DNA of 11,811 bases from Trueperella sp. GTDB taxonomy: Bacteria; Actinomycetota; Actinomycetes; Actinomycetales; Actinomycetaceae. A program made the position numbers and the translations under genes. Shown piece by piece: positions 3,938 to 10,201 of the stretch. The stretch's first letter is position 1; the number at the start of each line of letters is the position of its first letter. Where the stretch lies: NCBI GenBank assembly GCA_012727825.1, contig JAAYGH010000060.1, positions 1 through 11,811 of the forward strand, read 5' to 3'. A model generated the notes under the pieces. It was not told the origin of the DNA. It saw nothing but the letters and a program-made list of their open reading frames with translations, and ran no database searches.

Positions 3938-4957
3938 TTACGGGTGAGGGTGCGGGGGTGTGGTGGCGTCCGAGCGCTTGCGGATGTGCACGGTGCCGTC
4001 GTCGTCGGTCTCAAACTTGGTGTCCTCGTCTTGGCCGCGGTTGACTGGCAGAAGCGCGATAATGCCAACCACAATGGCACCCCAGATCAGACCGAAGGCC
4101 ATGGCATACATGGTGTCGAGCAGCCACACAAAGAAGCCACCGCCGGTACCGGCGATCGCGGTGGTGATGGTATGGCCGAGATCGTAGGGTGCGGACCAGA
4201 GGATTTCTTCGAGTCCAACAAGCACAATGTGACCGCCCACCCAGAGCATGGCGACAGTACCGATTGCGGTGATAGCGCTCATGACCTTCGGCATGGCGGC
4301 AAAGAGGCCGCGGCCAAATTTTTGAACCACCGTGTTCTCGCGCTTTGCGAGCCAGACACCGGCGTCGTCCATCTTGACGAGGAGTGCGACCGTGCCATAG
4401 ACCAGCGCCGTGATCCCAATTGCGACGACGATGAGGATAATCGCGCGCATCCAAAACACCTCGTCGGTGACCTCGTTAAGCGAGATGACCATGATCTCGG
4501 CGGAGAGGATGAAGTCAGTGGTGGTGGCTTCCTTAACGATCTTGTCTTCGGCTTCCTTACCCTTGACAGCGGCAGGGGCGTCCGACTTTGTGTCCTTTCC
4601 GCGGCGTACCTTTTCAATGATCTTGTGGGCGCCCTCGTAGGCCAGATACGTGCCGCCGAGCATGAGCAACGGTGTAAGCAACCAGGGAATAAATTCAGAC
4701 AGCACAAGTGCCACCGGCACGATAAAGAGGAGCTTGTTCCGTAGCGATCCGAAGAAAATACGCTTGATGATCGGAAGCTCGCGGGAGGGCTTGAGGCCAT
4801 CGACGTACTGGGGAGTCACGGCCGTGTCGTCAATGACGACACCGACCGCTTTCGACCCTGCCTTAGCGGCACCGGCAGCAATATCGTCAAGCGAAGCAGC
4901 AGTGACGCGCGCAAGCGCCGCAATGTCGTCAAGAAGAGCAATGAGACCAGTAGCCAC
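3938..4957 (-). CDS. DUF808 / YedI-type integral membrane protein
   Basis: The 339-residue product matches the DUF808 family (E. coli YedI), whose function is unknown. The N-terminus carries the family hallmark ATGLIALLDDIAALARVTA, followed by LDDIAA and a DDTAVTPQYV block. Four or so hydrophobic stretches can be seen: LLFIVPVALVLSEFIPWLL, AIILIVVAIGITALVYGTVA, the region around IGTVAMLWVGGHIVLVGL, and AFGLIWGAIVVGIIALL. A charged Lys/Asp-rich loop lies between the first two, and the tail is hydrophilic and His/Pro-rich. The start is taken as GTG 4957, because GGAGGGAG stands five bases upstream; the open frame also has a TTG at 4972, but that would overlap the ribosome site. A strong hairpin separates it from pepO upstream, so it probably has its own promoter, which I could not identify. 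Confidence 0.85.
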   Translation of the reverse strand: MATGLIALLDDIAALARVTAASLDDIAAGAAKAGSKAVGVVIDDTAVTPQYVDGLKPSRELPIIKRIFFGSLRNKLLFIVPVALVLSEFIPWLLTPLLMLGGTYLAYEGAHKIIEKVRRGKDTKSDAPAAVKGKEAEDKIVKEATTTDFILSAEIMVISLNEVTDEVFWMRAIILIVVAIGITALVYGTVALLVKMDDAGVWLAKRENTVVQKFGRGLFAAMPKVMSAITAIGTVAMLWVGGHIVLVGLEEILWSAPYDLGHTITTAIAGTGGGFFVWLLDTMYAMAFGLIWGAIVVGIIALLPVNRGQDEDTKFETDDDGTVHIRKRSDATTPPHPHP

Positions 4958-7752: not shown

Positions 7753-8328
7753 CTATATGTAAATCGCGGGGTCAATAAGCGGTTCCGTCTTAGTTTTCTT
7801 TTCGTTGTTTTTGGCGGGGATGCCCACTGCCACATTGTTGGAAGGAACGTCCTTGACGACGACGGCGTTGGCCCCGATCCCGACGTCGTCACCAATCGTG
7901 ATCGGACCAAGAACCTTCGCTCCCGACCCGATGGTCACACGGTCACCGACTGTGGGATGGCGCTTGCCCGGATCCATGGACGTGCCGCCGAGTGTGGTGC
8001 CGTGGAAAATGACCACATCTTCGCCCACCTCAGCGGTTTCGCCAATGACGACACCCATGCCGTGATCAATGAAGAGCCTGCGGCCCAGTTGCGCACCGGG
8101 ATGGATTTCCACGCCGGTCAGTCCGCGCACAGCCTGAGACAGCAAACGGGCGGGAAGCTTGAGCCGCTCATCTTTGTTCCACATGGCGTGTGCAACCCTG
8201 TACGCCCACACTGCGTGAACGCCTGGGTAGCTCAGGAGAACTTCGAGCTGGCTCCGGGCAGCGGGGTCGTTGTCGAGCGCCGCCTGCAAATCCTCCCGCA
8301 TTTTCTGAACGAGACCGTGCTGATTCAT
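7753..8328 (-). CDS. cysE: Serine O-acetyltransferase
   Basis: Transfers acetyl from acetyl-CoA to L-serine, giving O-acetylserine, the substrate of CysK. The 191-residue protein is the short form (E. coli 273 aa), with a reduced helical N-terminal domain (1-70) and a left-handed beta-helix of hexapeptide repeats (about 72-170). Catalytic His89 lies in [14 protein letters not shown], paired with Glu74 at the position of E. coli Asp143. The C-terminus ends in DPAIYI; a terminal Ile is the residue by which CysE tails insert into the CysK active site, so a cysteine synthase complex is plausible. The start has an AAGGA five bases upstream that overlaps the TAA stop of cysK (gap of eight bases), so the two genes are one operon, probably translationally coupled. 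Confidence 0.96.
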
Positions 8329-8336
8329 TGGTGTCC

Positions 8337-9266
8337 TTAGTCGAGAAGGCCGTCGAACAGCGGCGTCGATAGGTATCGCTCGCCAAAGTCCGGAATGATG
8401 ACCACGATGTTCTTGCCTGCGAACTCCTCGCGGGCGGCAACCTCCGCGGCTGCTTTGAGGGCTGCGCCGGATGAGATTCCGACGAGAAGGCCCTCTTCGT
8501 GAGCGGAGCGCCGCGCAAAGTCGAGCGCGTCGGGGCTCGCAACTGTGACGACCTCGTCGTACAGATCGGTGTCCAGTACCTTGGGCACAAAGTTCGCGCC
8601 GATGCCTTGGATGCCGTGCGGACCTGCCTTGCCACCGGACAGAAGCGGCGATTCCGCGGGCTCGACGGCCACGATGTGAAGATCCGGGTTACGTTCCTTC
8701 AGGTAGGCACCGGCGCCCGTCAGCGTACCGCCGGTACCGATGCCGGACACAAATACGTCAATGTTGCCATCCGTGGCCTCCCAGATTTCGGGGCCCGTAG
8801 TGGCTCGGTGAATTGCGGGGTTAGCTTCGTTGGCGAACTGCGAGGCGAGGATTGATCCGGGATTTTCTGTAGCGATTTCTTCAGCGCGGTCGAGAGCGCC
8901 CTTCATTCCCTTCGCGGGCTCGGTCAGTTCGAGGGTTGCGCCGAAACCACGAAGGAGAGCACGACGCTCCTTGGACATGGAGGAGGGCATCGTGAGGATG
9001 ACCTTGTAACCGCGAGCGGCGCCGACCCACGCCAGTACGATGCCGGTATTGCCCGACGTCGCCTCGACGATCGTGCCACCCGGCTTCAGCTCGCCGGACT
9101 TTTCTGCGGCGTCGATGATTGCCACACCGATACGGTCTTTCACCGAATTGGCGGGGTTGTAAAACTCGAGCTTGGCAATGACGTGCGCGTTGTCTCCGGC
9201 CAGGCGATTGATGCGTACAAGGGGAGTGTTGCCGACGATGTCAGTTGCGTTGCTGTAAATAGTCAT
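8337..9266 (-). CDS. cysK: Cysteine synthase A (O-acetylserine sulfhydrylase)
   Basis: PLP enzyme that makes L-cysteine from O-acetylserine and sulfide. The 309 residues cover the whole family: [11 protein letters not shown] with the PLP Lys43, substrate loop TSGNTGI (70-76), [11 protein letters not shown] (143-153), phosphate-binding GTGGT (177-181), [12 protein letters not shown] (the CysE-tail docking region), SSGAA (265-269) and the C-terminal [18 protein letters not shown], nearly as in M. tuberculosis CysK1. The start is ATG 9266, with AAGGA five bases upstream; the open frame continues 14 codons further, but those run through the leader without a ribosome site. First gene of the cysK-cysE operon, behind a leader of about 240 bases carrying a cysteine-rich small ORF. 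Confidence 0.97.
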
Positions 9267-9272
9267 AATGAT

Positions 9273-9385
9273 CCTTAGAAAGTTTGGGGAGGGTAAAGCC
9301 ACATACAAAAATTGGGGAGCTCTTCAGGCGAGCTGGCCGAGGTGGCACACATGCACGAGGGCACAAAACTAAGGTCTGCCACCTT
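9273..9385 (-). promoter_or_regulatory. cysK leader with competing base-paired elements (candidate attenuator)
   Basis: Three alternative pairings are visible in the transcript. First, CCTTAG at the end of the small ORF (9369-9374) is exactly complementary to CTAAGG (9273-9278), which contains the cysK Shine-Dalgarno. Second, AGGTGGCA (9377-9384) pairs with TGCCACCT (9340-9347). Third, AAGGT-GGCAG-ACCTT (9371-9385) is a small local hairpin. The third excludes the other two, and the first and second would form a pseudoknot together. A weak AGCTC/GAGCT stem, six bases before TTTTT, lies further downstream. The pairings are read by eye and no energies were computed. Confidence 0.5.
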
Positions 9386-9428
9386 GCAGACACATACGGC
9401 AACACATCATGGCGGTCGTCAGGTTCAT
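9369..9428 (-). CDS. Cysteine-rich leader peptide of the cysK-cysE operon
   Basis: A 19-codon ORF encodes MNLTTAMMCCRMCLQGGRP and ends in TAG. Three Cys (residues 9, 10, 13) and four Met make 7 of 19 residues sulfur amino acids, far above chance. AAAGGA lies ten bases before the ATG, and the ORF sits in the leader of the two last cysteine-synthesis genes, about 100 bases before cysK. Leader peptides rich in the regulated amino acid are classical attenuation sensors, and polycysteine small ORFs with this role are known from mycobacteria. The likely job is therefore ribosome stalling at the Cys codons when charged tRNA-Cys is scarce. It is too short for homology support, so the call rests on composition and position. 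Confidence 0.7.
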   Translation of the reverse strand: MNLTTAMMCCRMCLQGGRP

Positions 9429-9484
9429 GTTGATGACGTCCTTTCCGCGAGGTGGCGATGCATGGGGTACTGAACTATTGGGTG

Positions 9485-9502
9485 TTGAAATATTTGAAAT
9501 AT
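9485..9502. repeat. Tandem direct repeat TTGAAATAT x2 in the cysK leader/promoter
   Basis: Two adjacent identical 9-base units, in a short AT-rich patch of an otherwise GC-rich sequence, start just at or after the predicted transcription start of cysK. Flanking CTATTG (9475-9480) and CAATAG (9506-9511) form an outer inverted repeat. It could be an operator. Confidence 0.4.
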
Positions 9503-9513
9503 CAACAATAGCC

Positions 9514-9541
9514 AGTGTACAAGTTTGCAATCACAGGTCAA
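9514..9541 (-). promoter_or_regulatory. Promoter of the leader peptide-cysK-cysE operon
   Basis: On the minus strand TTGACC (-35, 9536-9541) and TACACT (-10, 9514-9519) are separated by 16 bases, predicting a start near 9505-9508 and a leader of about 240 bases before cysK. It lies immediately after the preceding gene. ACCTGT occurs twice with a 9-base period across the -35 box (ACCTGTTTGACCTGT), a possible binding site for an activator. Confidence 0.55.
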
Positions 9542-9547
9542 ACAGGT

Positions 9548-10201
9548 TCACCATCTGGGAAACGTTCCGTGCCTCACCTCATGGATGACCGTGCCGATGT
9601 CCTGCGGGCGTGCTTGACCAGCGCTGAGTTCAGCGAGGTCCGCGGCGAAGTCCCTCGGATCGGCGACGGCGACGTCGATATCCACTGCAGTTGCGCCGTA
9701 GTCAACGCCGATCACCTCGTAGCCGCGCCCGCGCAGTTCGGCCTCGACTTTGCCGGCGAGCGCGTGCCCCACAGATACCCGCTGCTTGCGATAGACGACC
9801 TGGCGGACGAGTTTGGCGTCGGAGAGCACTGCCCGCACAGAGTCCGAATACGCGCGCACGAGCCCTCCCGTTCCAAGGAGCGTGCCACCGAAATACCGTA
9901 CGACGACCACCGAGATGTCAGTCAGATCGTGCCCCGTGAGTACATCGAGCATCGGGCGTCCGGCAGTACCGGAGGGTTCGCCGTCGTCGGAGGAATTCAC
10001 GGTTGGCTGGGCGCCAGGTTGGGACACGACGAAGGCAGAACAGTGGTGGCGAGCGTCGGGAAACTCAGTGCGGGCATCGGCGAGGACTGCGCGCGCTGCG
10101 TCGACACTCGAGACGCGACGGGCGATCGCGATGAACCGCGACCGCTTAATGTCGAGTTCGGCGCGCAGCTCGCGGCGGGTGGATAGGCGCAGTTCAGTCA
10201 T
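9548..10201 (-). CDS. yigZ: YigZ / IMPACT (UPF0029) family protein
   Basis: 217-residue member of the YigZ/IMPACT family, whose bacterial role is not settled (the eukaryotic relative IMPACT modulates Gcn2 signalling). The N-terminal UPF0029 domain (about 15-125) has the family signatures [10 protein letters not shown] (50-59), [16 protein letters not shown] (70-85) and [22 protein letters not shown] (99-120). The second half (about 135-205) is a DUF1949-type ferredoxin-like domain. ATG 10201 is chosen because the typical N-terminus follows and an extended -10 (TGCAATAAT) stands six bases upstream; the AGGGG next to the ATG is too close to be a ribosome site. The frame is open 17 codons further upstream, but that would include the promoter. 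No terminator separates it from the cysK promoter, so readthrough into cysK is possible. Confidence 0.92.

Follow-up and report, generated by a model that had tools for sequence, protein, structure and literature searches.

The window, which is the whole stretch of 11,811 nucleotides from Trueperella sp. that was analysed, carries on its minus strand the genes cysK (8337-9266), encoding cysteine synthase A (TIGR01139, E 2e-133), and cysE (7753-8328), encoding a serine O-acetyltransferase (TIGR01172, E 1e-70). A YigZ-family gene lies upstream on the same strand and ends at 9548, and all features described below are likewise on the minus strand. Upstream of cysK is a short ORF, MNLTTAMMCCRMCLQGGRP (9428-9369, with ATG at 9428-9426 and TAG at 9371-9369), whose 19 codons include three for Cys and four for Met, and which was supported by comparison with relatives. 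It is preceded by the Shine-Dalgarno-like sequence GGAAAGGA (9439-9446), which aligned in the eight closest members of the genus. The sequence-only reading had proposed this ORF as a leader peptide with its own ribosome site and an adjacent Cys pair, placed between a plausible promoter and cysK-cysE, and these points were borne out by the sequence, the consensus scan and the two protein family matches. The pair is TGT TGC (9404-9402 and 9401-9399; codons -6 and -5, counting the usual stop position of relatives as 0), and another Cys codon, TGT, is located two codons ahead of the usual stop position (9392-9390). In the window the usual stop position itself is occupied by CAA (9386-9384), and the in-frame TAG (9371-9369) is found five codons past it, inside the bulge of a hairpin. 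The remaining spacer before cysK (9339-9267) includes the cysK Shine-Dalgarno sequence AAGGA (9276-9272).

The promoter-like site TTGACC-16-TACACT (9541-9514) was identified by a consensus scan only, which gave one such site in 9200-9650 versus a mean of 0.4 in shuffled sequences, and similar TTGACn boxes were seen in several congeners. A leader of about 78 bases would be consistent with this site if transcription started near the predicted position 9507. Near this predicted start is a palindrome, TTGATATTTCAA (9505-9494). The strict form TTGA-N4-TCAA occurred at 13 of 97 leader loci versus a mean of 0.04 in letter shuffles and a loose form at 23 of the 97, and the palindrome is possibly an operator that would provide a second layer of control.

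All nine genomes of the genus that were searched, the own genome included, contained cysK, and a Cys-rich leader ORF was present at the same place in each. Besides that of the window, the genus leaders read MNMMTAMMCCCMCL, MTSMTASMCCCMCL, MMMTAPMCCCECR (two genomes), MMMTAPMCCCDCL, MMMTAPTCCRTCR, MFVTAPACCHNCR and a divergent MLYHMSCTCRCFGSAGL. A comparison of relatives had been suggested as a check on the ORF, and in it the ORF retained its start, reading frame, Cys codons and stop as the sequence drifted, with cysK still downstream. Within the genus the usual stop position was followed by the inverted repeat AGGUGGCA...UGCCACCU, with paired changes in two genomes (G001 and G005). Other Cys leaders were sought in the own genome with the pattern TGYTGYNNNTGYNNNTRR, which gave six places, compared with 15 for the backward control; three of these (L243, L245 and L246) were not leader-like on inspection and another (L247, window 4863-4880) fell within another ORF.

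A covariance model built from eight genus leaders (R1) matched 19 of 213 family genomes, including four other genera, and the 11 new matches all had Cys-rich leaders. The upper-stem columns of R1 were misplaced (39.6% paired), and the models R2, built from the 19 R1-matched sequences, and R3, built from 85 sequences, were used instead. R2 matched 128 of the 213 genomes at E <= 0.05 and R3 matched 135 at E <= 0.01 in 25 of 36 genera, at least six of the weak R3 matches being spurious. R3 matches were compared with cysK positions in the eight weakest of the genomes listed (E 0.002-0.009), where the match was away from cysK in six (G065, G136, G151, G168, G171 and G206) and adjoined cysK in two (G124 and G129); a cysK gene was present in 206 of the 213 family genomes. 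One hundred loci, one per genome, were read, consisting of the top matches and hand-picked others among the 128 R2-matching genomes, and the element was directly upstream of cysK in 99 of them, at distances of 33-402 bases, the models containing no cysK sequence. The exception (L124) was not before cysK and was dropped from later counts, and R3 places the element of that genome beside cysK on another contig. Two loci with the stop one codon earlier, right after TGT (L145 and L146), are included in counts over 99 leaders and left out of counts over 97.

At the level of the order, 80 of 396 genomes matched R3 (E <= 0.01), 25 of the 80 being from the own family. Twelve readable matching genomes from outside the family were inspected, and six of these, in two other families, had Cys codons, a stop and a hairpin before cysK, one of them (L085) with no start codon seen; the remaining six matches were not near cysK. 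A search of 80 named cysK loci with R2 placed the element ahead of cysK in Trueperella, Peptidiphaga, Actinobaculum and two Flaviflexus; the only further matches at E <= 0.1, three in number, came from Brevibacterium and a Propionibacteriaceae MAG and lay inside or behind cysK. Twenty model-negative family genomes were also inspected. Five of these (g10, g17, g25, g31 and g34) had a leader whose penultimate residue was Cys, with a hairpin of another sequence behind the stop, which indicates that the layout outlives the sequence. A sixth (g21) had a doubtful leader and the other 14, Ancrocorticia included, had no convincing one. In two model-negative loci (L248 and L256) the Cys-bearing ORFs were judged unconvincing by eye. 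The leader element is absent from part of the family, which counts against its universality. A Bifidobacteriaceae MAG (L160) contained an ORF ending in RCCC and a stop about 259 bases upstream of cysK, with no model match.

Across 97 leaders, the last six positions held 285 Cys codons in frame versus 5 and 34 in the other two frames. Codon -2 was Cys in all 97, always as UGU and never as UGC. Cys was also found at -6 in 45, at -5 in 71 and at -4 in 69 of these leaders, mostly as UGC, with UGC and UGU interchanging at these positions. The UGU was followed by an Arg codon in 46 leaders and a Leu codon in 39, and the tetranucleotide UGUC (9392-9389 in the window) was kept in 87, more than the amino acids require, so that an RNA-level constraint seems to act there; the UGU at -2 may be kept as RNA sequence and not as a waiting site, because the next base is mostly C whatever the amino acid. 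Eighty-one of the 97 leaders had an ATG and a Shine-Dalgarno core of at least 4 nt, and the contrast that had been drawn with the leaderless mycobacterial cases holds on this sequence comparison. The leader had also been described as rich in both sulfur amino acids, of which Cys was conserved, whereas the Met residues of the window leader were not conserved outside the genus.

A stop codon was located immediately before the hairpin in 84 of 99 leaders, the 5' arm starting on its third base. This usual stop was missing from 15 leaders, and 13 of them, the window included, ended exactly five codons further on, in the hairpin bulge, the other two being L145 and L146. In-frame stops at the fifth codon, also in the bulge, were found in 31 of the 84 leaders that have the usual stop; all three stop triplets were used, and no other codon among the next 20 was a stop in more than two leaders. 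These counts are inflated by relatedness, with the place and frame still specific. Given the usual stop in 84 of 99 and the bulge end in 13 of 15, the window ORF represents a minority long form. The ORF as initially read is real, but its tail QGGRP, encoded by the 5' arm of the hairpin, is atypical.

The second half of the element, overlooked in the sequence-only reading, is a covarying hairpin, H1, that starts at the usual stop codon (9384-9340; model match 9417-9337). It comprises a lower stem of 11 bp (9384-9374 with 9350-9340), a 5'-side bulge (9373-9365) and an upper stem (9364-9361 with 9354-9351), the bulge sequence varying between genera. When 19 sequences were aligned with MAFFT, without fitting to a model, pairing was seen in 94.7% of cells and 44 double-change cells were counted versus 14.5 in shuffles (0 of 500 shuffles as high), and in a model-fitted alignment of 85 sequences the values were 92.6% and 133 versus 33.7 (0 of 500 shuffles). 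Slid controls paired in 25-54% and 26-50% of cells, respectively. RNAalifold predicted 10 of the 11 lower pairs from the 19-sequence alignment, and folding of H1 in 34 sampled leaders gave a mean z of -3.1 against shuffles. The 246 window bases folded as a single sequence were no better than shuffles (z -0.17), and the case for the cysK leader element thus rests on comparison. The Rfam 15 covariance models gave no match to 9260-9545 at E values up to 10. A weak candidate pseudoknot follows the hairpin (GGC/GCC and AGCUC/GAGCU, 9338-9318) at the genus level only, its cells pairing at 81% and 85% in eight genus sequences; the structure that includes it was weakly above shuffles, 142 of 500 being as high for pairs with double changes.

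Parts that could convert the hairpin into a silencing signal were sought over the 99 leaders. A U-tract behind the hairpin was present in 3 of the 99 only, and U-tract terminators were discarded as a general component. Over the same set no antiterminator partner of H1 was found: the 3' arm and the spacer showed no excess pairing (mean z +0.2), and neither did upstream sequence and the 5' arm. Complementarity between the hairpin and the cysK ribosome site was not in excess either (mean z +0.33). A suggestive alternative pairing was seen in 35 Actinomyces-like leaders, where the region of the Cys codons can pair with the bulge and only 1 of 200 partner permutations was as good. For the remaining 62 leaders, 71 of 200 permutations were as good, and a pairing between the Cys codons and either the 5' arm or the bulge is unsupported as a general feature outside the Actinomyces-like group.

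The spacer between the element and cysK ranged from 35 to 404 bases (median 98; 99 leaders) and was C-rich and G-poor in relatives. C exceeded G in 89 of the 99 spacers and exceeded it more than 1.5-fold in 62, or in 87 and 68 of 98 when measured before the Shine-Dalgarno sequence. The corresponding numbers were 55 and 6 of 99 for sequence upstream of the leader, and 9 and 0 of 18 for cysK upstream regions of other actinobacteria, a control drawn from other families. Some short spacers were C-poor (L043, L049 and L059). In composition alone, the C-rich spacers would be compatible with Rho loading.

The cysK-cysE leader is very probably a Cys attenuator, and it is likely, on comparative grounds, that the element acts as a cysteine-responsive, ribosome-mediated attenuator of cysK-cysE with H1 as its switch, whichever way H1 acts. 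Ribosome-mediated attenuation had been the initial proposal for this leader, and the comparison of relatives supports it, although the classical terminator and antiterminator parts were not found. Measured from the first base of the A site, a ribosome footprint extends for about 13 bases, so that a ribosome at codon -2 would cover about five bases of H1, compared with about 11 for a ribosome at the usual stop. Under a shortage of charged tRNA-Cys, a ribosome would wait on the UGU two codons ahead of the usual stop, mask about five of the 11 lower-stem bases on the 5' side and keep H1 open, and cysK-cysE would be expressed. When cysteine is plentiful, the ribosome would finish and leave, H1 would close and expression would be cut. 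Since the strongest conservation is at -2, the waiting ribosome would be the one that opens H1, which would make H1 the OFF structure, an assignment that we regard as evenly balanced. The calculated mean energy of H1 with 0, 5, 11 and 26 bases masked was -26.7, -15.3, -11.6 and -5.9 kcal/mol over 97 leaders, and -17.9, -6.2, -2.6 and -1.7 kcal/mol in the window, so that masking five bases takes on average about 11 of 27 kcal/mol from the hairpin. H1 would be out of reach of a ribosome waiting on the tandem Cys codons (-4 to -6), a geometry that speaks against H1 as the OFF structure and fits the opposite logic. With neither a U-tract nor sequestration of a ribosome site, the cut would probably be transcriptional, and most likely would be Rho-assisted termination within the C-rich, G-poor spacer. 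This proposal follows from the C-rich spacer together with the absent parts; Rho as the output is plausible though held below even confidence, and the C-poor short spacers count against it.

In the opposite logic H1 would be the ON structure, freed by a ribosome at the tandem Cys codons, and a ribosome at the stop would mask the 5' arm and lead to silencing. The ribosome footprint gives this arrangement a suitable geometry, as a ribosome at the usual stop would cover all 11 lower-arm bases and one at -4 or earlier none, and the Cys-codon/bulge pairing of the 35 Actinomyces-like leaders resembles a classical first hairpin. However, the third partner that it needs was not found between the 3' arm and the spacer, the alternative pairing was not seen in the other 62 leaders, and Cys conservation peaks at the codon closest to the hairpin. 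Because of the tandem codons and the alternative pairing in 35 leaders it is retained as the main rival, unlikely as we consider it. Rather less probable is that H1 is a site for RNase III or other cleavage, which a waiting ribosome would shield and so stabilise the mRNA; this would suit a long duplex lacking terminator features and would be independent of spacer length and composition. In translational attenuation, the cysK ribosome site would stay concealed by the RNA except while a ribosome paused within the leader. This mechanism would follow the analogy of the polycysteine leaders reported for Mycobacterium smegmatis, as stated in passages of citing papers, but the lack of excess pairing between the hairpin and the cysK ribosome site and the wide range of spacer lengths make it improbable here. 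The RNA might instead bind a ligand or protein, the peptide being incidental, as its structure with a bulge and the retention of UGUC could suggest. Synonymous variation of the Cys codons at -4 to -6 with the frame kept, bulge sequences that are unlike between genera and the lack of an Rfam match leave this explanation with very little likelihood. Short ORFs are common by chance, but a chance ORF is contradicted by the place, frame, Cys codons and stop conserved across the family and is discounted almost entirely.

Returning to the preferred reading, in which H1 closes behind a departing ribosome, the element has an SD-led ORF before a biosynthetic operon, clustered Cys codons and an adjacent covarying RNA, as do ribosome-mediated amino-acid attenuators, and it does not have the U-tract intrinsic terminator of the classical transcriptional class. 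Mycobacterial polycysteine leaders were reportedly tested by Canestrari et al. in 2020 and are said to be leaderless attenuators in which the downstream ribosome site is hidden. The cysK element is similar to these in having Cys codons in a leading short ORF before cysteine genes in Actinobacteria, but differs in being SD-led in most leaders, with a predicted leader in the window, and in its unremarkable pairing with the downstream ribosome site. On its sequence features, the best reading is of a Cys attenuator outside the tested features of both the classical transcriptional and the leaderless mycobacterial classes. Tentatively, and with somewhat less than even confidence in the parts taken jointly, the element may represent an uncatalogued class of attenuator, found in much of the Actinomycetaceae and extending into two or more further families of the order. 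In such a class nothing but the ribosome itself would compete with the hairpin, there being no antiterminator, U-tract or hidden ribosome site. While waiting, the ribosome would directly gate a single hairpin anchored at the stop codon, Rho or mRNA cleavage would provide the read-out, and the in-frame bulge stop would serve as a standby end of the leader peptide.

No prior report of this cysK element was found in searches of open-access papers. Mycobacterial polycysteine attenuation is stated in passages of two citing papers (PMC13236596, PMC9031893) and appears as a reference entry in a third (PMC9094748). Seliverstov et al. 2005 (PMC1262725) predicted Cys leaders ahead of the cys operons in Mycobacterium and P. 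acnes and of cbs in B. longum; in the accessible text of that survey these leaders were without terminators, Rho was suggested and no conserved hairpin was seen, and Actinomyces naeslundii was in the genome list with no Cys leader reported for it there. The cysK element resembles those leaders, as described in that text, in occurring in Actinobacteria as a short ORF with Cys codons near its stop, before cysteine genes and with no U-tract terminator, and differs in having a covarying hairpin that starts right at the stop codon and in preceding cysK-cysE. The uORFC-8-2 motif, described in the available portion of PMC8632094, lies before cysS of Rhodobacterales and likewise combines a Cys-codon uORF with a covarying RNA and a cysteine-related gene downstream; that motif is alphaproteobacterial, with Cys codons within the first stem and a terminal U-run, whereas the element described here precedes cysK and has no U-run. 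The ilvB-II motif of Corynebacterium (PMC10272879, as excerpted) is likewise a uORF attenuator of Actinobacteria that was discovered as an RNA motif, but concerns branched-chain amino acids and has a U-tract after its second stem, unlike the cysK element.

If the proposed reading is true, cysK-cysE of many Actinomycetaceae, with Trueperella, Peptidiphaga, Actinobaculum and Flaviflexus among those named, would gain a defined cysteine sensor. The element makes Cys attenuation without a U-tract terminator testable, a question left open for Actinobacteria in the 2005 survey as far as its accessible text goes (PMC1262725), and the leader alignment could seed an RNA family entry. In the available part of a Streptomyces lividans reannotation (PMC8079986) eight leader peptides are described, none of which is there called cysteine-dependent. 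The metNIQ leader among the S. lividans peptides, described there as methionine-dependent, ends in GARCMCRRMCAF with three Cys and may be a Cys leader.
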